Positions 56,498-64,000 of a DNA stretch of 64,000 nucleotides are shown here, one piece after another. Each line of letters begins with the position of its first letter. Position 1 is the first letter of the stretch. The position numbers were made by a program, and so were the translations under genes. This stretch comes from Clostridia bacterium. Its GTDB lineage: Bacteria > Bacillota > Clostridia > Oscillospirales > CAG-272. Under the pieces are notes generated by a model. The model did not search any database. It saw only the letters and a list, made by a program, of their open reading frames with translations, and was not told where the DNA came from. The DNA is taken from positions 33,710 to 97,709 of the forward strand of contig JAFQDK010000021.1 in the NCBI GenBank assembly GCA_017399305.1, in the 5' to 3' direction.

Positions 56498-56597
56498 TAC
56501 TGCAATAATTGTTAAACCAAGACAGCAAGAATTGCTATTGTTAACAGTTATATTTACGTGTAAAATATAATCAGAATAACAAATGGAGCGTGCAGAT

Positions 56598-59003
56598 ATG
56601 AAAAAACTTTTAAAAACAGCAATTCTTTTTATAATTTCGGCGACTCTTTTAATAAGTATATTTGCGGCAGATAAAACGCATGATGTGAATGACAGTGGCC
56701 AGGTCGATTTGCTTGATGTTCTTGCGATCATGAGAGAGCTGCCAAAAGAAACTCCCGACACCTCCATGGATATGAATGGTGATGGAACTGTTAGTGTGCT
56801 TGATGTATTGTTATTGCTTCAGGCTATAGTCAACGGCGGTAGCGGCAAAGTAGATGTTTATTATTCTTACACCGACATTGTTTCGCGTATGACTGACACC
56901 CCTTATTTAAGTATGAATAACACCGACGAGGAGAGCGAGATGTTCACCTCGTATGACCGAAAGTCGCAGTATGTTGACGGTAAATATACAAACTGGCGTG
57001 CTAATGGAGACGGAAGCAATGTTATTGGCACTACCGAAGACGGCGGACATCTTATTGCCGATATTACTGGCGCGGGCTTTATTTCGCGTATCTGGTCTGC
57101 AACAAGCGGTCCCGGCCACGTTAAAATATTTATCGATGGCGAAGAAGAGGCCACTATTGATCTTGCATTTGCGGATTTTTTTAATTGTACTTCAGAGCCT
57201 TTTGTATATTCAAATCTTGTGTATGAGGACAGTGCACGCGGCAAGAATAACTTTGTTCCGATAACGTTTAACGAGTCTTGCCGTGTTGTAGCATACGGTG
57301 GTTTTGGTGATGACGGTTGGGGCAAATACTATCACATAAACTATACTTTGTTCCCGGAAAATGTTACTGTAGAGTCTATGCCCGATGCATTTTCCAATGA
57401 GCAGAAAGCGGCACTTGAAGAGATAAATACCTTCTTCGGTGAGGGTATTGGTACAAATCCCGAAGGTTGTCAGGATGCGGCCTTTGAGACATTTACTGTT
57501 TCAAAGGATGCTCCCGCTGTTAAGACTATCACTGGCAAGGGCGCAATAAGCGGTCTGCTTGTAAAGATTGATTCGCTTGGCGACGTTTATGCAAACTCAA
57601 AGAGAGCAGTAGATGCACTTAAGAATCTCCGCATTAGGATTTATTGGGACGGTGAGACCGTGCCTTCGGTAAATTCACCTCTCGGTGACTTTTTCGCAAG
57701 CAGCTACGGCTTTACCTATGTACGCACGCTTTTGCTCGGAGTGCGTGATGACCGCACATTCTATAACTACTATTACATGCCATATCTCAAGGAGGCAAAG
57801 ATTGAGATTTACACAGTAGGTGACTCTGCCGAAACAGTTTCACTCTCTGTAAACGTTGTGGAAAATACCGTTCACGAAGATGATATGATGTACTTCGGTG
57901 CACTCTTCAACCTCGGAGGCTATCATTCCGACGCGCTTATTGACGGTGAGTATAACACCGCCGCAGAGCGCAACCCCGACTATCACTTCATCACCGTAAA
58001 CGGCGCGGGCAGACTTGTGGGACTTACACTTCACCACAACAAGACTATTGACGGCGTTGATCCCCTCAGTCACCCCGGCAACCCGTGGTGGGGCGAGGGT
58101 GATGAGAAGTTCTTTATCGATGGCGAAAAATTCCCTTCATGGTTTGGCACAGGCACCGAGGACTTCTTCGGATATGCTTGGTGTTCACCTCTCCTCTTTA
58201 CAAAGGCTTATCACGCACAGTCCTACTGTGAGGGCTCGTCAAACAGCATCGGCAACCGCGTTGTTACGCGCATTATGATGGGCGACAGCATTCCTTTTGA
58301 TGAGCGCTTTGAGGGCTATATCGAAAAGTATTATACTGATGAATACACAAAGTATAGCTTTACATCCTACTTCTACCGTGCCAAGGGCGGTACTGTAGAG
58401 GGCATCAACTACGACGATAGCGCAGTTCTTGACTATTATCAGCCGGATGACTCAGGCAACGGCCTTGTCGAGGGCGAAAACCTCTATGTTGAGGCGATCA
58501 ACTCTGCAAATGGCTATATCGATCATCAGCCAATGGTATCTTACAGCCCTGCTTGGAGCCGTGATACTCAGATGTATTGCGGAGGCTTTACGGTAGGCGA
58601 TTCTATCGACTTTACACTTCCCGCACCTTCGGACGGTGAGTATATGCTGCTTGCCTCCTTTGCAAATGCTGTGGACTTCGGTATTTTGCAGGCTTCGGTC
58701 AACGGTACTTCGGTAGGCACTCCCGTTGACACCTACGGTAAGATTGTTGCGGCGGATTACCTCACCGAGCTTGGCAAGGTAACTTTGACAGAGGGATATA
58801 CAAACACGCTAACCTTTGAAGTTACCGGTAAGAACGCGAGTGCGACCAACTATCGCTTTGGCATCGACTTCGTGCTTCTTGTTCCCGTAAGTGAGTATAA
58901 GAGTCTTGCAGAGCTTGACCTTACCGCTTATACTGATGTAGTACGTTTTAATACCAAGCGTGACATAAACACCACAGGCACGTACACCTTTGAAGCAGTA
59001 TAA
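56598..59003 (+). CDS. GH172 (DUF2961) enzyme with N-terminal dockerin-like module
   Basis: An 801-residue secreted enzyme. After a signal-like segment (MKKLLKTAILFIISATLLIS) come two good calcium loops of a dockerin, DVNDSGQVDLLDVL and DMNGDGTVSVLDVLLLL, at residues about 30-80, an N-terminal place for a module usually found at the C-terminus. Residues about 90-480 match the DUF2961 family, now GH172: GAGFISRIWSATSGPGHVKI, GGFGDDGWGKYYHINY and FGTGTEDFFGYAW. GH172 enzymes act on fructose- or arabinofuranose-containing glycans. The C-terminal 200 residues look like a jelly-roll domain. GGAG sets the ATG at 56598. A mobile element begins shortly after the stop. Confidence 0.86.
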   Translation: MKKLLKTAILFIISATLLISIFAADKTHDVNDSGQVDLLDVLAIMRELPKETPDTSMDMNGDGTVSVLDVLLLLQAIVNGGSGKVDVYYSYTDIVSRMTDTPYLSMNNTDEESEMFTSYDRKSQYVDGKYTNWRANGDGSNVIGTTEDGGHLIADITGAGFISRIWSATSGPGHVKIFIDGEEEATIDLAFADFFNCTSEPFVYSNLVYEDSARGKNNFVPITFNESCRVVAYGGFGDDGWGKYYHINYTLFPENVTVESMPDAFSNEQKAALEEINTFFGEGIGTNPEGCQDAAFETFTVSKDAPAVKTITGKGAISGLLVKIDSLGDVYANSKRAVDALKNLRIRIYWDGETVPSVNSPLGDFFASSYGFTYVRTLLLGVRDDRTFYNYYYMPYLKEAKIEIYTVGDSAETVSLSVNVVENTVHEDDMMYFGALFNLGGYHSDALIDGEYNTAAERNPDYHFITVNGAGRLVGLTLHHNKTIDGVDPLSHPGNPWWGEGDEKFFIDGEKFPSWFGTGTEDFFGYAWCSPLLFTKAYHAQSYCEGSSNSIGNRVVTRIMMGDSIPFDERFEGYIEKYYTDEYTKYSFTSYFYRAKGGTVEGINYDDSAVLDYYQPDDSGNGLVEGENLYVEAINSANGYIDHQPMVSYSPAWSRDTQMYCGGFTVGDSIDFTLPAPSDGEYMLLASFANAVDFGILQASVNGTSVGTPVDTYGKIVAADYLTELGKVTLTEGYTNTLTFEVTGKNASATNYRFGIDFVLLVPVSEYKSLAELDLTAYTDVVRFNTKRDINTTGTYTFEAV

Positions 59004-59004
59004 T

Positions 59005-59035
59005 GTAAAGGGCATTGAACAGATGTGTTCTTTAC
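59005..59035 (+). other. Hairpin after the GH172 gene
   Basis: GAACA-GATG-TGTTC, extended by GTAAA and TTTAC across a one-sided bulge. There is no U-run. It may be a weak terminator or part of the mobile-element junction. Confidence 0.4.
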
Positions 59036-59081
59036 CTAATACATTATATATGGCTGCGGCTCATTTGCGATAATTTGAAAA

Positions 59082-59150
59082 GTGGTTATATATAAACAAG
59101 GCGGTGATAATCCAAAACTTGAAACCATAACCACAAAGCAATTTTATCAC
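59082..59150 (+). other. Interleaved inverted repeats before tnpV
   Basis: GTGGTTAT (59082-59089) pairs with ATAACCAC (59127-59134). GTGATAA (59104-59110), inside that loop, pairs with TTATCAC (59144-59150), beyond it. As RNA this would be an H-type pseudoknot ending 4 bases before the tnpV ribosome site. However a promoter-like pair TTGCGA and TATATA (59065-59092) overlaps the first arm, so the repeats could instead be DNA-binding sites. Confidence 0.5.
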
Positions 59151-59170
59151 GAATGGAGGTCGAAAACAAG

Positions 59171-59557
59171 ATGAAAGAGAAATTTGTTAAAAACGGCATT
59201 GAGTATGTAAGACAAGGAGATTACTACATACCAAATCTAACCGTACCCGATGAAGCTACATATAATATCGGCAAGTACGGAAACCTACGCAAAAGATTTT
59301 TGAAAGAACATCACAGGGCATTATATACCGTAATGTTTATGAATGGCTCATTATTCAAGCACCTTGCGGAGATAGACGAAGCCTGTCATAACTACTTAAA
59401 AGATGTGATACCAAAAATGGCAGAGCAAGAAGGTGTTACAGAACAGTTAAAAGCAACAGACCAAATGGCTTGGGTACAGAAAATGAACTCAATTAAGCAC
59501 AGAGCCGAAGAATTTATATTCTCGGAATATGTGTATGCGGTGGAGGGTGCAGAATGA
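59171..59557 (+). CDS. tnpV: Transposon-encoded protein TnpV
   Basis: A 128-residue protein of the TnpV family found in Tn4451-like elements. It carries the typical YGNLRKRFLKEHHRALYTVM, and the SLFKHLAEIDE stretch. Its function is unknown; it is a marker of clostridial mobilizable elements. The frame opens at 59153, but GGAGG at 59155-59159 is itself the ribosome site, so the ATG at 59171 is chosen. Its stop overlaps the DUF6809 gene (ATGA), so the two are coupled. Confidence 0.92.
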   Translation: MKEKFVKNGIEYVRQGDYYIPNLTVPDEATYNIGKYGNLRKRFLKEHHRALYTVMFMNGSLFKHLAEIDEACHNYLKDVIPKMAEQEGVTEQLKATDQMAWVQKMNSIKHRAEEFIFSEYVYAVEGAE

Positions 59558-59859
59558 ATTTTATTGAAGAATTATATTATGGGAATATAAATCCCAATGA
59601 AAAACGCTATAAAAAAGCGACACCATACGACAAGGCATTAAGCACATTTACCGCTAACGAGGACAAGCTGAAAGAAGCACTATCCGGCGAACAGTTGAAA
59701 TTATTTAATGAGCTTGTAAATGCAAGTGATGAAATAAGTGCTACAAGCGGAGTTGAAAATTTCAAAATCGGTTTTAGACTTGGTGTTAAGATGATGTGCG
59801 ACAGTTTGTTATTTGAGGAAAATAAAGTATTCAAAGATGTTTTGAAAGAGAGGTTTTGA
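59554..59859 (+). CDS. DUF6809 family protein
   Basis: A 101-residue soluble protein resembling DUF6809, common in clostridial mobile elements: NFIEELYYGNINPNE at the start and VENFKIGFRLGVKMM near the end. The function is unknown. The ATG overlaps the tnpV stop by 4 bases. It is followed 3 bases later by a secreted protein gene, so all three share a message. Confidence 0.82.
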   Translation: MNFIEELYYGNINPNEKRYKKATPYDKALSTFTANEDKLKEALSGEQLKLFNELVNASDEISATSGVENFKIGFRLGVKMMCDSLLFEENKVFKDVLKERF

Positions 59860-59862
59860 CGA

Positions 59863-60426
59863 ATGAAAAAGTTATCAATAATTTTAATAACAATATCAAT
59901 ATTGGCAAGTGCAGTTACAGTAAATGCTGCTCCCGTTCCGAGAGAATCAGCACCCTGTAATGCAACAGAACACAAAATCATAGTTGCAGAAAGTTTTATC
60001 AGCGGAATTTTGGACGAGGTTAAAAATGGTATGGGATATGCCGATGCAAGAGCTAAATCAAACCGCATATTCTTCAATGCTTGGCTTAACGGACAGACAA
60101 GCGGTTACAGCTACGGAGAACTTACGGCTATTGCAAATAACGCAATATTCCAATACAGAGATATGTATTTAAGACCTAATTTCTACATAGAAAACGAAGA
60201 AAAGGTCAGAGCCATAATTGCAGATGTTATTACACAGTATGCAAACGGCGAGATTGACTATACCAAAGCGGAATTTAATGCAAGAGTAAAAATTTATCAA
60301 TCTGTCAATCCTGCATTTAACCCCGATGAAGAATTTGCAAAAGACACTTGCTACCGTGATATTCCATCAGTTGACAATAGCTTATTTACCATAGCAAGAA
60401 AACTGATTTTAGAAGCTAAAAAGTAA
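59863..60426 (+). CDS. Secreted protein of unknown function in the mobile element
   Basis: A 187-residue protein with a clear signal peptide (MKKLSIILITISILASAVTV, cleavage near VNA-AP). The mature part is helical, with two cysteines (SAPCNATE and KDTCYRD) that might form a disulfide. I do not recognise the family. It follows the DUF6809 gene by 3 bases, with GAGAGG before the ATG. A cargo or surface role is possible; nothing in the sequence says which. A strong terminator follows. Confidence 0.78.
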   Translation: MKKLSIILITISILASAVTVNAAPVPRESAPCNATEHKIIVAESFISGILDEVKNGMGYADARAKSNRIFFNAWLNGQTSGYSYGELTAIANNAIFQYRDMYLRPNFYIENEEKVRAIIADVITQYANGEIDYTKAEFNARVKIYQSVNPAFNPDEEFAKDTCYRDIPSVDNSLFTIARKLILEAKK

Positions 60427-60457
60427 ATCATATCTTATCCTATCCAAAATAATCTAA

Positions 60458-60500
60458 CAGTAAAAGGTGTAGCCGTCAAAGCTACACCTTTTACTGTTTT
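60458..60500. terminator. Long bidirectional terminator
   Basis: CAGTAAAAGGTGTAGC pairs without mismatch with GCTACACCTTTTACTG around a 7-base loop, then TTTT. It lies between the tnpV operon and the convergent RHH gene, overlapping the RHH stop. Confidence 0.88.
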
Positions 60501-60694
60501 CGGGTTGGTTTAACATTTACATCGGGATTTATATTTCCCTCAATTACTCCGTTTGCTTCTTCAAATGCCTTGATGTTTTCTCTGATTAAAACGAGAACAT
60601 GACTGTTTACACTCCGCCCCTCATAATCAGCAACATAGGCGATTTTGTCAAGCATTTCTTGCTCTATTCTTATTGATACACTCTTGATAGCCAT
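60491..60694 (-). CDS. Ribbon-helix-helix DNA-binding protein
   Basis: A 67-residue protein with an Arc/MetJ/CopG-type start (KSVSIRIEQEMLDKIAYVADYEGRS... as beta strand, helix, NSHV turn, helix). It should bind DNA as a dimer. TGGAG 7 bases before the ATG sets the start. It is divergent from the SLOG gene, with palindromes between them, so it probably represses its own gene and perhaps SLOG. RHH genes beside an unrelated gene can be antitoxins, but the SLOG gene is transcribed the other way, so this is not a classic toxin-antitoxin pair. Confidence 0.85.
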   Translation of the reverse strand: MAIKSVSIRIEQEMLDKIAYVADYEGRSVNSHVLVLIRENIKAFEEANGVIEGNINPDVNVKPTRKQ

Positions 60695-60705
60695 AAAATC
60701 ACTCC

Positions 60706-60781
60706 AAAATAAATATATTATGTATTTATTTTATCGGAATTATGTGTTATAATGTTATAAATAGATATATAGTATATCTAT
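60706..60781. promoter_or_regulatory. Two palindromes between the RHH and SLOG genes
   Basis: AAAATAAATA-N7-TATTTATTTT (60706-60732) overlaps the RHH ribosome site region. ATAGATATA-TAG-TATATCTAT (60761-60781) follows an extended -10 element TGTTATAAT (TATAAT at 60748-60753) for the SLOG gene. They are likely operators for the RHH protein, by position. Confidence 0.55.
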
Positions 60782-60801
60782 AATATTTTGGTGGTGATTG
60801 T

Positions 60802-61317
60802 GTGGAAAATAATAAAATGTGTACTTGCTGCTTCTTCGGGCATAGAAAAATCAACGAAACGCCTGAACTGACGGAAAGGTTGACAAAAGCGATAGAGAAT
60901 TTGATTTTAGCAAAAGATGTTAATACTTTTCTTTTTGGTAGTAAAAGTGAATTTGACAGGCTATGCCATAAAGTCGTTACAACCTTAAAAGAAAAGCATC
61001 CTCATATAAAAAGGATTTATGTTCGTGCAGCTTACGCTGACATAGATGATAGCTATACAAAATATTTGTTAGAGAGCTACGAAGAAACCTATTATCCCGA
61101 AAAAATGAGAGGTGCCGGAAAAGCATCTTATGTGGAGCGTAACCAAGAAATGATAAATCAATCGAATTTCTGCATAATTTACTATGACAAAAATTATCTT
61201 CCGCCGAGAAGAAAAAACAGCAGACGGGATTTAACAGACTATCAACCTAAAAGCGGTTCAAAGGTAGCCTATGATTATGCCGTGAAGAAAGGCAATGAAA
61301 TTATCAATGTAATGTGA
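60802..61317 (+). CDS. SLOG family (DUF1273/YpsA-like) protein
   Basis: A 171-residue protein with a Rossmann-like SLOG domain: CTCCFFGHRKINETPELTER at the start, FLFGSKSEFDRLCHKVV, and NFCIIYYDKNYLPP. SLOG domains bind nucleotides or their derivatives, and members occur in conflict and mobile systems. It starts with GTG at 60802, preceded by GGTGGTGAT, a ribosome site that also precedes the GTG of the sigma-like gene in this element. An internal ATG is five codons later. A GC-rich hairpin without U-run follows. The ligand is unknown. Confidence 0.85.
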   Translation: MENNKMCTCCFFGHRKINETPELTERLTKAIENLILAKDVNTFLFGSKSEFDRLCHKVVTTLKEKHPHIKRIYVRAAYADIDDSYTKYLLESYEETYYPEKMRGAGKASYVERNQEMINQSNFCIIYYDKNYLPPRRKNSRRDLTDYQPKSGSKVAYDYAVKKGNEIINVM

Positions 61318-61321
61318 AAAA

Positions 61322-61352
61322 CCCCTTGCAGACTTTTATGATCTGCAAGGGG
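61322..61352 (+). other. GC-rich hairpin after the SLOG gene
   Basis: CCCCTTGCAGA, 9-base loop, TCTGCAAGGGG; a perfect 11-bp stem but no U-run follows, so it may slow or process transcription more than terminate it. Confidence 0.65.
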
Positions 61353-61408
61353 CATTATAGCATTATAGACAAATTTATTTGTATCTGATGCAAATGTTGG
61401 AAAATATC

Positions 61409-61437
61409 TTGAAAATTATCGAATTATAGTGTATAAT
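61409..61437 (+). promoter_or_regulatory. Promoter of the free-standing RNA unit
   Basis: TTGAAA (61409-61414), 17 bases, consensus TATAAT (61432-61437). No gene other than the 41-codon ORF lies downstream on this strand before the terminator. Confidence 0.78.
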
Positions 61438-61443
61438 ATACCT

Positions 61444-61727
61444 TGTCGGAGTAATCCGATAAGGCAAGATTTCTTAACGGTGTTATTCACCGGCGGTTAT
61501 GCCCACCTTTACATATACAGGCAGTAATGCTGAGTCTATGAAAGGAGGGATGCTTATGAAAAGTAAGCATATTGCTAATGGTAAAGAAGTTGCTATTTGC
61601 GATTTTAGAGGTTATCATACTTCTGATAATCTTCTCCATAAAAGCAGAATGACCGCCCTCGCCAAAGTTCGGTCATTCTAATATGATTTCGTTCTAAGGC
61701 ATAACCGTTTGAGGTCTTGCCTTTTTT
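61444..61727 (+). ncRNA. Candidate structured RNA closed by long-range helices
   Basis: The expected transcript of about 285 bases can fold into a closed form. AAGGCAAGA (61461-61469) pairs with TCTTGCCTT (61715-61723), and CGGTTATGCC (61494-61503) pairs with GGCATAACCG (61698-61707). Between the two left arms is a hairpin CGGTG-TTATT-CACCG (61478-61492). A 5' hairpin (TCGGA-GTAA-TCCGA, with a longer wobble extension at 61441-61464) competes for the AAGG of the outer helix. Inside the loop are ATGCTTA-N7-TAAGCAT around the ORF start and AGAATGACCG ... CGGTCATTCT (61646-61679). The U-run 61722-61727 ends the transcript at the closing helix. I do not recognise a known RNA class. Confidence 0.55.
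61556..61681 (+). CDS. 41-codon ORF inside the structured RNA
   Basis: AAAGGAGG at 61541-61548 precedes an ATG at 61556 by 7 bases, an excellent ribosome site. The product is a 41-residue basic peptide starting MKSKHIANGKEVAICDFRGY and ending in ALAKVRSF, with one cysteine and no membrane segment or signal. A second ATG (61550) is too close to the ribosome site. The start codon lies at the loop edge of a 7-bp hairpin, and the last codons form one arm of the hairpin at 61646-61679, so translation and folding must interfere. It could be a regulatory leader-type peptide or the product of the unit. Confidence 0.5.
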   Translation: MKSKHIANGKEVAICDFRGYHTSDNLLHKSRMTALAKVRSF

Positions 61728-61829
61728 CTATAATCATTATACACCTAATAGGTGCGTTTGTCAACAGAAATAGCGAAAGTTTTACGATTTGCACAAAACT
61801 ATGAGATTTTCAATAGCTTTGTGCTTTTT

Positions 61830-62729
61830 TTATTTCTGTTCCTCTTTCGACCTGCTCTTATACACATTATATTGATTTTTGCACTTTGAACTGCAAAACA
61901 GAGCATTGGGACGAGTTGGGATAAATGCCTTTGTACAATGCTTACACAGACGGATGGGTGTTTTATCATCTGTCATTGACAAGCTCAATAACATTTGTGC
62001 TGCTATTGCAAGTGAGCCGAAATTCCATACAAGAGTTGGTTTGTCGAGCAGCTTTATGTGATATGTGGGGGAATTGGTGCTAAATACTGTCATCATTTGC
62101 TGATACAGTTCCTTGTCCTTATCTTCAAAGCTATTTTCATAATATAAAGATGCAGTTGTAAATAATAATGCCCAATCGAGAAATTGAGTTTTAACCCACT
62201 CATAGGATTCTGCATAGTTTCGCTGAAAGCTCATATTTACCGCCGTTTCTCTGTCGGTAAAGGTCATAGCAAGTGCCATCATAGTATTATCGCCGGAAAT
62301 CTCCCATTTCATAGCAAGACCGTCTTTTTCGACTTGTGGCATTTCAAAAGGATAAAAATATGATATATATTCTATCGTATCCATTGTTTCAGCTTTAATA
62401 TATCTGTTCTTAATAAAATGTACTATCTCATAATCCATAAATGACGGAGTGGTTGTAATTGTAGTCATAAGACCGAGCAGACCATAACGGGAAACAAATC
62501 CCATTATGGCTTCTTTCTGCTCGGCTTCTTTTTCTTTATCCCTATTCATACAGAGAAGTCCGATATTTAATGCTTCTACCACAATATCCTCTTTATGTTT
62601 TAGAATATTGTATATATCGGGCATAGCATCATCTGTCGGCTTAATGTATAAAATCCCGTCTTTTTCTTTTAATTCGTATTCGCTGTATCTAACCCAATTA
62701 GATTTTGCGTGTTCAAAAATATCTTTCAT
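61830..62729 (-). CDS. Mobile-element protein with C-terminal zinc ribbon
   Basis: A 299-residue cytoplasmic protein. Most of it is of unknown fold, largely helical. The last 50 residues hold a four-cysteine motif, LCKHCTKAFIPTRPNALFC then SSKCKNQYNVYKSRSK, of a type seen in CGNR-like zinc ribbons, and the end is basic, suggesting nucleic acid binding. GAGGT before the ATG sets the start. It is transcribed leftwards toward the structured RNA. Its job is unknown; the domain resembles those in clostridial element-borne proteins. Confidence 0.75.
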   Translation of the reverse strand: MKDIFEHAKSNWVRYSEYELKEKDGILYIKPTDDAMPDIYNILKHKEDIVVEALNIGLLCMNRDKEKEAEQKEAIMGFVSRYGLLGLMTTITTTPSFMDYEIVHFIKNRYIKAETMDTIEYISYFYPFEMPQVEKDGLAMKWEISGDNTMMALAMTFTDRETAVNMSFQRNYAESYEWVKTQFLDWALLFTTASLYYENSFEDKDKELYQQMMTVFSTNSPTYHIKLLDKPTLVWNFGSLAIAAQMLLSLSMTDDKTPIRLCKHCTKAFIPTRPNALFCSSKCKNQYNVYKSRSKEEQK

Positions 62730-62779
62730 ATAGTTTACCTCAACATTCTATATATAATTACCTCTATTAGCTTTTATCT

Positions 62780-62819
62780 AAAAATGAGCATACCAAATAG
62801 ACATCTATTTTTCGCTCAT
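62780..62819 (-). terminator. Intrinsic terminator of the sigma-like gene
   Basis: On the minus strand ATGAGC, an inner hairpin AAATAGA-TG-TCTATTT, GCTCAT and a U-run, directly between the two leftward genes. Confidence 0.7.
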
Positions 62820-62855
62820 ATTATTCTCAAAATCATTTTTAGTCTTTTTTCAAAA

Positions 62856-63557
62856 TTATTCATTCTTTTTATAGTTTTCGACAAATTTCTTTTCGGCAAG
62901 TGTCATATCGTGCTTCTTGCCTTGTTCTGATGTAAGGAACTCATACATTTTTTTGCGTATGTTCTTCAGGAATGTTTCTCTGTTGTATCGTACTGCTCTG
63001 TCGCTCTTACCGAGTATTTTTTCTACTTCTTTTGTGCTGTAACCTTTTACTGCTAACAAATATAAGATTTCTTTATGCTCGTCTTTTAATCCTTTTAATA
63101 TTTTACTCAAATATTCTTCCGTTACAAGCTCGTGTATCTCATAGGGATTGTCAAAGATAACATCTATGAAATCTCCCTTGCGTATCTGCTTTGCGTTATA
63201 GGTATTAAGATTTTTCGGGAACACAGTTCCCCAAGAGGCTTCGCACCATTCAAGAGGAAAATCCTCATCATTACGGCATATCTCCCAATATCGTTCTTTT
63301 CGTTCTCTGTTTTCGTCAAGGCTGTCCCACCGTTTTATAATCGCTTTGAAATCTTCGGGAGTTTTTGCAGCTTGTTCAAGTCTTTCTAAAGCTGCTGCTT
63401 TAATATCCCGTTGCAGTTGTTTCTTCTTCGGTGTTACAACCTCTGATACAATATCGGCTTTAATATTCGGCGGAGCGTTGGCATCTTCACGGGCGAGTGC
63501 TTCCTGCATCAGTTCAGCTTCCTGCTGTTCTGTCATGTCATAGTCAAATTCATTATA
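62856..63557 (-). CDS. Sigma-70 region 4-like protein in the mobile element
   Basis: A 233-residue protein. The C-terminal third holds a sigma region 4-like helix-turn-helix: EHKEILYLLAVKGYSTKEVE then ILGKSDRAVRYNRETFLKNI. The N-terminal part is charged, and there is no clear region 2, so it may be an anti-sigma-like or sigma-related regulator rather than a full sigma factor. The frame is open to a TTG at 63602, but GGTGGTGAT seven bases before the GTG at 63557 indicates that start. A consensus promoter and a leader with a possible 14-codon peptide lie upstream. Its targets are probably in the element. Confidence 0.78.
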   Translation of the reverse strand, partial: YNEFDYDMTEQQEAELMQEALAREDANAPPNIKADIVSEVVTPKKKQLQRDIKAAALERLEQAAKTPEDFKAIIKRWDSLDENRERKERYWEICRNDEDFPLEWCEASWGTVFPKNLNTYNAKQIRKGDFIDVIFDNPYEIHELVTEEYLSKILKGLKDEHKEILYLLAVKGYSTKEVEKILGKSDRAVRYNRETFLKNIRKKMYEFLTSEQGKKHDMTLAEKKFVENYKKNE

Positions 63558-63591
63558 CACCGTAGTATCACCACCTGTCTGTATTGAATTT

Positions 63592-63636
63592 TCAAGGTGC
63601 AAAATAAATTTTCAAAAACCCTTCCGATTTTATCAC
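63592..63636 (-). CDS. Possible 14-codon leader peptide of the sigma-like gene
   Basis: On the minus strand AGGAG, 7 bases, then GTG opens a 14-residue frame, MIKSEGFLKIYFAP, ending at 63592, 35 bases before the GTG of the sigma-like gene. It lies in a leader of about 130 bases. It may be a control peptide or chance; its size and ribosome site fit translational attenuation. Confidence 0.35.
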   Translation of the reverse strand: MIKSEGFLKIYFAP

Positions 63637-63695
63637 GATTTTTCTCCTACTAATGAGGGGTGTAATCTGCAATAAAATAAAAGGATTACAAAAAC

Positions 63696-63724
63696 ATTAT
63701 ACACAAACCCCTTAAATCTGTCAA
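63696..63724 (-). promoter_or_regulatory. Consensus promoter of the sigma-like gene
   Basis: Minus strand TTGACA (63719-63724), 17 bases, TATAAT (63696-63701), perfect SigA consensus. TGTAATC and GATTACA (63661-63667, 63684-63690) form an inverted repeat just downstream of the start point. Confidence 0.85.
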
Positions 63725-63745
63725 TAGTTTAGGAGGAAATAATTT

Positions 63746-63928
63746 ATGAGTAATACAATTTTAACAAAAAGGATAGGAACTACTACCTACAAAGTAAATG
63801 TGCATTTTAACCAAAATGCAACGGAAACAATGGAAGAAAAATTTATGAGGGTAATTTCTAATTACCCATTGGCAAACGGCGAAAAGTGTGGTATAATAGA
63901 TGTATCGCAAATGAGCCGTTCAGCCTGA
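63746..63928 (+). CDS. tnpW: Transposon-encoded protein TnpW
   Basis: A 60-residue protein of the TnpW family of Tn4451-like elements: RIGTTTYKVNVHFNQNATET is typical. The function is not known. AGGAGG at 63732-63737 sets the start. The recombinase gene begins 14 bases after its stop, the usual order next to a large serine recombinase. Confidence 0.9.
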   Translation: MSNTILTKRIGTTTYKVNVHFNQNATETMEEKFMRVISNYPLANGEKCGIIDVSQMSRSA

Positions 63929-63942
63929 AAGGAGTTTTTTTA

Positions 63943-64000
63943 ATGAAAGTCAGGCAGACGGAAGAAAACAAAATAACAGCTTTATACGAGAGATTGTCAA
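63943..64000 (+). CDS. Large serine recombinase (TnpX-like), N-terminal start only
   Basis: The first 19 codons are in the window. KITALYERLS matches the beta-strand that opens the resolvase domain and carries the catalytic serine in related large recombinases (Y-x-R-x-S). AAAGGAG is 8 bases before the ATG. It would catalyse excision and integration of the element. The rest is beyond the window. Confidence 0.82.
   Translation, partial: MKVRQTEENKITALYERLS

Follow-up and report, generated by a model that had tools for sequence, protein, structure and literature searches.

A candidate type I toxin-antitoxin module in a Clostridia mobile element, with a conserved hairpin between ribosome site and toxin start

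A structured RNA and an opposing promoter in a mobile element

The window, the whole stretch of 64,000 nucleotides that we analyzed, closes within a mobile element, and the locus described here lies inside that element. Among nine neighboring proteins that were scanned, TnpV, DUF6809, an Arc-like protein and TnpW scored above their cut-offs, while a SLOG-like and a sigma-like protein scored slightly below theirs; we take this set to point to the Tn4451 group. From 58964 to the end of the window, the sequence aligns with the contig L213 at 96% identity over 5,049 aligned bases, and the flanking gene differs. The genome of L213 carries the label of the window's class and of another order. The element's left end falls within the 3′-terminal part of an 806-codon ORF (56583-59003), and in L213 the same element end adjoins an ORF that looks, by eye, like a tyrosine recombinase. 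Since the element ends within or against an ORF at both sites, it probably changed, on insertion, how each of the two proteins ends.

The locus carries the following features, numbered by window position.

58964..64000, no strand assigned: part of the Tn4451-like mobile element that carries the module; its right end lies past the contig end
61409..61437, + strand: predicted promoter of the toxin mRNA, TTGAAA-17-TATAAT, 11/12 consensus, with the start expected near 61444
61444..61728, + strand: predicted toxin mRNA of ~285 nt, folded, with inferred ends and a U-run at 61723-61728
61462..61473, + strand: 5′ arm of helix P1, 12 bp, paired with 61711-61722 in the predicted fold
61493..61503, + strand: 5′ arm of helix P2, 11 bp, paired with 61698-61708 in the predicted fold
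61506..61545, + strand: predicted hairpin masking the ribosome site, CCUUU 61506-61510 with AAAGG 61541-61545
61541..61548, + strand: Shine-Dalgarno sequence AAAGGAGG, proposed to serve both start codons
61550..61570, + strand: spacer hairpin AUGCUUA-UGAAAAG-UAAGCAU, between ribosome site and toxin start, −8.1 kcal/mol
61556..61681, + strand: 41-codon ORF, its AUG within the spacer hairpin; a proposed decoy start out of the toxin frame
61578..61652, + strand: predicted toxin ORF, 24 hydrophobic residues, TGA at 61650-61652; the conserved frame, +1 to the 41-codon ORF
61638..61729, − strand: predicted antisense RNA antitoxin of ~90 nt, from promoter and terminator-like hairpin, with inferred ends
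61646..61679, − strand: terminator-like hairpin of the antisense RNA, overlapping the toxin stop codon, with a U-run complementary to AAAAGCA 61640-61646
61698..61708, + strand: 3′ arm of helix P2, paired with 61493-61503
61711..61722, + strand: 3′ arm of helix P1, running into the U-run
61764-61736, − strand: antisense promoter TTGACA-17-TATAAT, 12/12, directly behind the U-run

A preliminary description made from the letters of the sequence had singled out the plus-strand promoter and a structured RNA whose ends are joined by two long-range helices of 9 and 10 bp. The promoter-like sequence is indeed there, and the predicted fold of 61444-61728 reaches −108.1 kcal/mol compared with −66.3 ± 4.9 for shuffled sequences (z of −8.47; 0 of 200 as good). 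Both helices are present and lead into the U-run as described, but at 12 and 11 bp they are longer than claimed. The RNA is also predicted to be a discrete transcript of the mobile element and not a leader, as had been proposed. A riboswitch or leader was rejected, the next named gene on the same strand, TnpW (63746), lying far past the U-run; a retron or intron RNA was rejected with no matching protein among the nine neighbors scanned. A tRNA or tmRNA identity was likewise considered and rejected.

The ribosome site that the preliminary description called near-ideal is present, but its AAAGG pairs with the upstream CCUUU in the predicted fold. Any competition for AAGG between the outer helix and the third hairpin proposed there would depend on where exactly transcription begins. 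Predicted folding leaves the site unpaired 28% in the full-length RNA and 15% in a 3′-truncated RNA, which counts against our reading. The toxin AUG is unpaired 6% in the full-length RNA, 5% in the truncated one and 61% in a nascent RNA that reaches 61600. Because both elements are mostly paired in these folds, folding alone does not account for the opening of the masked ribosome site or of the toxin AUG.

The antisense promoter is one of five exact TTGACA-17-TATAAT sites in the whole window, against 0.01 expected. Upstream of it on the plus strand, a 10-bp hairpin is predicted between 61646-61655 and 61670-61679, and read on the minus strand this hairpin is followed by TGCTTTT, in the manner of a terminator. 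From the perfect promoter and the terminator-like hairpin we predict an antisense RNA of ~90 nt, with a fold at z of −4.5 (1 of 200 shuffles as good). The preliminary description had missed both signals, and together they make the locus a candidate type I toxin-antitoxin module. What had been taken for a free-standing RNA that encloses no normal gene is best read as a type I toxin mRNA.

Relatives and the conserved reading frame

We searched for relatives with a covariance model of the 3′ part of the RNA (model R1). At E ≤ 0.001, matches were obtained in 94 of 394 genomes from the order to which the window belongs, in 77 of 391 from its class and in 14 of 398 from its phylum; these tallies count model matches, with rough E-values and a minority of the matches read. 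The window's own genome gave one DNA match and one R1 match, both of them the window copy, and four of its five further pattern matches (the other is L010) were read and lacked the architecture by eye. A search for similar DNA across 59 genomes returned the window's own copy and two short hits, L002 and L003, at the promoter end. There was no match in a DNA search of phages, and pattern searches of viral contigs gave 0 matches. A pattern scan of genome contigs yielded 23 loci. Six of the eight that were read are relatives, all from Clostridia MAGs by title; L012 and L020 lack the architecture by eye, and the 15 further loci, from Pseudomonas and other non-Clostridia by title, lie outside the eight.

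One relative sits in a plasmid record of Monoglobus pectinilyticus. It has a single start and shares its terminator region with the window. Its ribosome site is followed at once by the frame of a 24-residue hydrophobic peptide, and it retains the perfect promoter on the opposite strand. The long-range helix arms, GCGGUUAUGCC/GGCAUAACCGU in the window, read ACGGUUGUCAU/AUGACAACCGU in M. pectinilyticus, with letters that differ on both sides.

The preliminary description had seen the coding capacity of the RNA in the 41-codon ORF behind AAAGGAGG. Both the ORF and the site are present, but codon comparison does not single out this ORF as the conserved frame. Across all pairs of 16 distinct sequences with a 24-codon toxin, the window included, codons in the toxin frame show 581 synonymous and 1,350 other differences. 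The resulting value of 0.301 compares with 0.154 in a column-shuffled control, and 0 of 200 shuffles reached it. In the frame of the 41-codon ORF there are 129 synonymous and 1,690 other differences, or 0.071 compared with 0.153 in the control, below it in 200 of 200 shuffles. The pair of the window and L023 differs at six synonymous and four other codons in the toxin frame, and at zero synonymous and eight other codons in the 41-codon frame. The 41-codon ORF is thus not the conserved product, and the earlier suggestion of a dual-function RNA does not simply hold, as what is conserved is a hydrophobic peptide read in a different frame.

Homologues of 24 residues directly behind the ribosome site also occur in L018, L004, L032 and L033. 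We scanned a non-redundant set of 132 matches, assembled from 76 of 77 matches of one R1 list and 58 of 61 of another after removing duplicates. Of these, 120 have a strongly hydrophobic peptide that ends with a stop codon at the antisense hairpin's base. Among these, a script placed a ribosome-site start in the peptide's frame in 89 (21-32 residues), in the +1 relation only in nine and in the +2 relation only in none, and found no ribosome-site start in 22. On hydrophobicity and the conserved frame, the predicted product is a short membrane-type peptide of the kind expected in type I modules. The scan found no hydrophobic peptide in 12 of the 132, including L022 and L048:1368. The copies at L022:5420-5588 and L048:1368-1533 keep the antisense promoter and hairpin, and they are possible antitoxin-only relics.

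The preliminary description had staked part of its case on homologues with compensatory changes in the two long helices, and these were found. In an alignment of 19 full-length sequences from the window's two-start subgroup, 94.6% of cells pair over all helices, and 16 of 50 pairs have changed on both sides, compared with 4.8 in shuffles (0 of 500 as high). Helix P2 pairs in 100% of cells with both-side changes at 3 of 11 pairs. Helix P1 pairs in 78.9-88.6% with such changes at 3 of 12, and is less clean perhaps from misalignment. The hairpin that masks the ribosome site pairs in 89.5% of cells.

For single-start members, a test of arm-pairing energy stands in for the helix alignment. It covers 104 members, after removal of duplicates and of matches without a recognized ribosome site, promoter or enough flank, and with L125, L129 and L133 left out. 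The 5′ leader pairs with its cognate 3′ region at a mean of −40.2 kcal/mol compared with −22.7 for shuffled 3′ regions, and cognate arms are better than all 40 shuffles in 88 of the 104. With non-cognate 3′ regions the mean is −29.9, and the cognate arms beat all 40 in just 27 of 104, at least partly because the arm sequence is common to many members. Prediction and pair counts together are consistent with a toxin mRNA whose fold masks its ribosome site.

Conservation of the promoters was assessed with a second model, R2, which excludes the antisense promoter; some of its 32 loci are also R1 matches (L188 is L100, and L201 is L164). The antisense promoter is without mismatch in 20 of these 32 relatives and in 0 of 1,600 shuffled regions. 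Nine of the 32 carry at least two mismatches, which counts against the reading. An exact antisense promoter also stands in 105 of 131 R1-based matches, a count biased because R1 itself contains the promoter, so the R2 test is the fairer one. Among the 31 R2 relatives with enough upstream sequence, the sense promoter has at most one mismatch in 8 and at most two in 15, compared with 0.4% and 5.6% of shuffles. A duplex test at z of −3 was passed by 21 of the 32 and not by 11; for L188 the arm test was misplaced because the R2 match there starts in the leader. At the level of sequence, then, a putative antisense RNA gene with a conserved promoter and terminator-like hairpin overlaps the toxin mRNA. 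In a separate branch made up of L184, L205, L206 and L207, UUG replaces AUG as the toxin start codon and the 3′ end differs; three of the four (L184, L206 and L207) show 3-4 mismatches in the antisense promoter.

Taken together, sequence and comparison bear out the homologues, the toxin frame, the helices, the antisense promoter and the terminator-like hairpin, along with the spacer hairpin described below. We judge that the locus is very probably a type I toxin-antitoxin module, which is a kind already known.

Two start codons behind one ribosome site

In the window the toxin AUG (61578) lies 29 nt behind the ribosome site, and a nearer AUG (61556) is well spaced at 7 nt. The spacer hairpin stands between the ribosome site and the toxin start. 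All seven pairs of its stem are standard in 25 of 25 aligned sequences, with both-side changes at 3 of 7, as in the variants AUGCUUA/UAAGCAU, GCGCUUA/UGAGCGC and GUGUUUA/UAAACAC. The distance from the near AUG to the toxin start is 22, 25 or 31 nt and equals 1 mod 3 in all 25; in two of them the toxin start is a UUG that we assumed by homology. Looping out the hairpin shortens the spacing to 8-13 nt, down from 29-39, in the 23 sequences with an AUG toxin start, and from 29 to 8 nt in the window. The geometry of a split ribosome site, in which a conserved hairpin shortens a long spacing, is therefore found in 23 of 25 sequences by spacing and in 25 of 25 by stem. This alignment (A6) left out L021, L182, L202, L206 and L207, which are near duplicates or lack the antisense hairpin, and on reading they keep the 1 mod 3 relation as well.

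Model R2 was built from nine members with the +1 relation, so its further matches are not a fully independent test of that relation. At E ≤ 1e-4 it had matches in 46 of the 95 genomes from one other order; 70 of the 95 belong to a single family, with 42 genomes matching. Of 34 matches that were read, the window included and ten weaker loci (L189-L198, other than L188) left out of the tally, 30 have two starts and four have one (L187, L188, L200 and L201).

In every one of the 25 sequences, the ORF that opens at the near AUG continues past the toxin stop. Given the toxin residues, the chance of this is ~0.49 per sequence, and ~0 for the third frame. The excess of open frames is suggestive and not exact, because at 70% identity the 25 sequences collapse into nine clusters, and because codon usage was estimated from these very sequences. 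The ORF stops within the segment in 20 of the 25, after 40-51 codons and 11-53 nt behind the toxin stop, and in the other five it is still open at the segment end. What is kept in this ORF may be the transit of ribosomes rather than a peptide.

Our proposed mechanism starts from a plus-strand toxin mRNA whose ends would be joined by P1 and P2 and whose ribosome site would be masked, so that the full-length RNA should be poorly translated. The consensus promoter at the 3′ end would give rise to the ~90-nt antisense RNA, complementary to the final codons of the toxin and to the 3′ arms, and once paired with it the mRNA would be degraded or blocked. After loss of the element, the antisense RNA, as the shorter-lived of the two, would run out before the mRNA, allowing the 24-residue membrane peptide, the presumed toxin, to be produced. 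In the two-start subgroup, the ribosome site would face a pair of start codons. While the spacer hairpin is open, ribosomes would start at the near AUG (61556) and pass through the whole toxin gene in a meaningless or harmless 41-codon frame; with the hairpin closed, the AUG at 61578 would come to an effective distance of 8 nt and the toxin would be made.

We consider this whole reading, a type I toxin-antitoxin module with a choice of frame between two starts that probably stabilizes its mobile element, to be likely. For the frame switch by the spacer hairpin, taken on its own, the geometry tips our judgment slightly in favor. We see even chances for the broader proposal, in which a conserved frame switch would set toxin output by hairpin stability, and not by masking alone, within a large unlisted type I family of gut Clostridia.

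Known systems and competing explanations

The possibility of a hidden known class, raised in the preliminary description, was not borne out: Rfam 15 at gathering score gave no family for the window or for 20 further loci with family members, and the best relaxed hit, RAGATH-36 (RF03104), reached 23.6 bits of a required 70. None of nine toxins tested scored above a Pfam or NCBIfam cut-off. For Hol_Tox (PF16935, cut-off 23.3 bits) the best of the nine was 16.4 bits, from the L057 toxin, and for PepG1 (NF041589, cut-off 70 bits) one relative scored 16.8; the window toxin matched neither. Among the titles and abstracts of open-licence papers, we recognized none on this family or on a split ribosome site in a toxin mRNA.

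In its general plan the module resembles TxpA/RatA, BsrG/SR4 and the CD-RCd pairs of C. difficile, which the cited sections describe as short hydrophobic peptides with convergent, 3′-overlapping antisense RNAs on mobile elements (PMC6563280, PMC4147584). BsrG also has its ribosome site in a stem, as in the window RNA (PMC6563280, PMC4147584). However, the window toxin has 24 residues, and toxin lengths given in one cited section are 28-60 residues in B. subtilis and 34-59 in C. difficile (PMC6563280). Further differences from TxpA, BsrG and the CD-RCd pairs are the absence of a family match above cut-off, the overlap of the antisense hairpin with the toxin stop, and the spacer hairpin with its second start. 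In the aapA/IsoA system of Helicobacter the toxin mRNA likewise has a long-distance 5′-3′ interaction and a ribosome site that is masked, but the cited portion of that work describes no second start codon (PMC6733600).

The two-start arrangement has partial counterparts elsewhere. In T4 genes 25 and 38, according to the section cited, a hairpin brings ribosome site and AUG together, from 27 to 11 and from 22 to 5 nt, much as the window's spacing would shorten from 29 to 8 nt (PMC3014915). Beyond this likeness, the looped-out hairpin of the window holds a well-spaced AUG out of frame, and the gene it precedes is toxin-like and under predicted antisense control. Start-stop minigenes before txe and ycbK are similar in that a second start near the ribosome site alters downstream translation; as described in the part cited they are two-codon ORFs (PMC8708949), whereas the window-type ORF has 40-51 codons where its stop is seen (20 of 25) and spans the toxin.

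The hok/mok/Sok system is comparable in its folded mRNA and in a second ORF tied to the toxin ORF (PMC4147584, in the section cited), and it suggests the main alternative. Translation of mok is required for hok, according to the same section (PMC4147584). By analogy, translation of the overlapping 41-codon ORF would be needed for the toxin, with the ribosome unwinding the toxin-start region and the hairpin damping the leader ORF. Such coupling would fit a frame that runs uninterrupted across the toxin in all 25 sequences, against a chance of ~0.49 each, and a toxin AUG that is paired in the predicted fold. However, the sequence of the leader peptide is not conserved, and the leader ORF either stops behind the toxin stop (20 of 25) or is still open (5 of 25), so ribosomes could not stop and restart before the toxin. 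Additionally, 89 of 120 members place a ribosome-site start in the toxin frame itself. Unlike in hok/mok/Sok, the window's second start comes after the sole good ribosome site and before the toxin start, and the ORF it opens passes the toxin stop. We regard coupling of this kind as unlikely.

In a programmed +1 frameshift, ribosomes that initiate at 61556 would shift at the AAAA run and continue in the hydrophobic frame, giving a longer toxin. Relatives with stops in the toxin frame behind the near AUG (TAG in L185 and L186, TAA in L103) still keep the +1 relation, which makes a slip at the near AUG unlikely; one might still occur further downstream. L092 has no AAAA run, and in single-start relatives the ribosome site leads straight into an ORF for a 24-residue product. 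The idea draws on the lack of stop codons in the toxin frame as far upstream as the near AUG, seen in the window and in several relatives. It also draws on the toxin-frame codons upstream of 61578 (61563-61577, VSILL-like), where variation in the window and relatives is, by eye, mostly silent. The frame-switch model does not predict this upstream conservation, which counts against it. Weighing these points, we find a frameshift quite improbable.

We give still less credence to a decayed copy, in which a frame-broken toxin gene would be kept only as an antitoxin relic, as seemingly in L022 and L048:1368. No ribosome site stands at a normal linear distance from the window's toxin start, and relatives do include copies with the antisense half and no hydrophobic peptide, but the arrangement is kept in 25 distinct sequences (nine clusters at 70% identity) and the toxin frame is conserved in the 16 tested. 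Least probable of all is the original view of a regulatory or dual-function RNA with the 41-codon ORF as its product, since, for all its strong ribosome site and a frame open beyond the toxin stop more often than by chance (25 of 25), the residues of that ORF change freely (0.071 synonymous compared with 0.153 in the control), the +1 frame is the conserved one and so is the antisense promoter.

If our preferred reading of a type I module with a hairpin-dependent choice of start is true, it would add a widespread type I toxin-antitoxin family without a match in Rfam 15, and without a Pfam or NCBIfam match above cut-off in the members tested. Experimentally validated modules in Clostridia were limited to C. 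difficile according to the cited section of a 2019 review (PMC6563280). The spacer-hairpin subgroup would then be a natural, conserved case of an RNA hairpin that chooses the reading frame, and would offer a direct test of how ribosomes choose between two starts behind one ribosome site. The locus also serves as a warning that strong-looking small ORFs may be decoys.

Some loci carry tandem copies of the module whose sequences differ (L004:4609-5148, L044:798-2217 and L175:70-702). A ribosome-site start is not visible in all of them, and they look as if paralogues diversify their pairing. Within the window's element, a strong palindrome at 60458-60500, between the Arc-like gene and the ORF at 59863-60426, is probably a two-way terminator. 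A further perfect TTGACA-17-TATAAT promoter lies on the opposite strand at 63696-63724, before the sigma-like gene and adjoining the TnpW gene.
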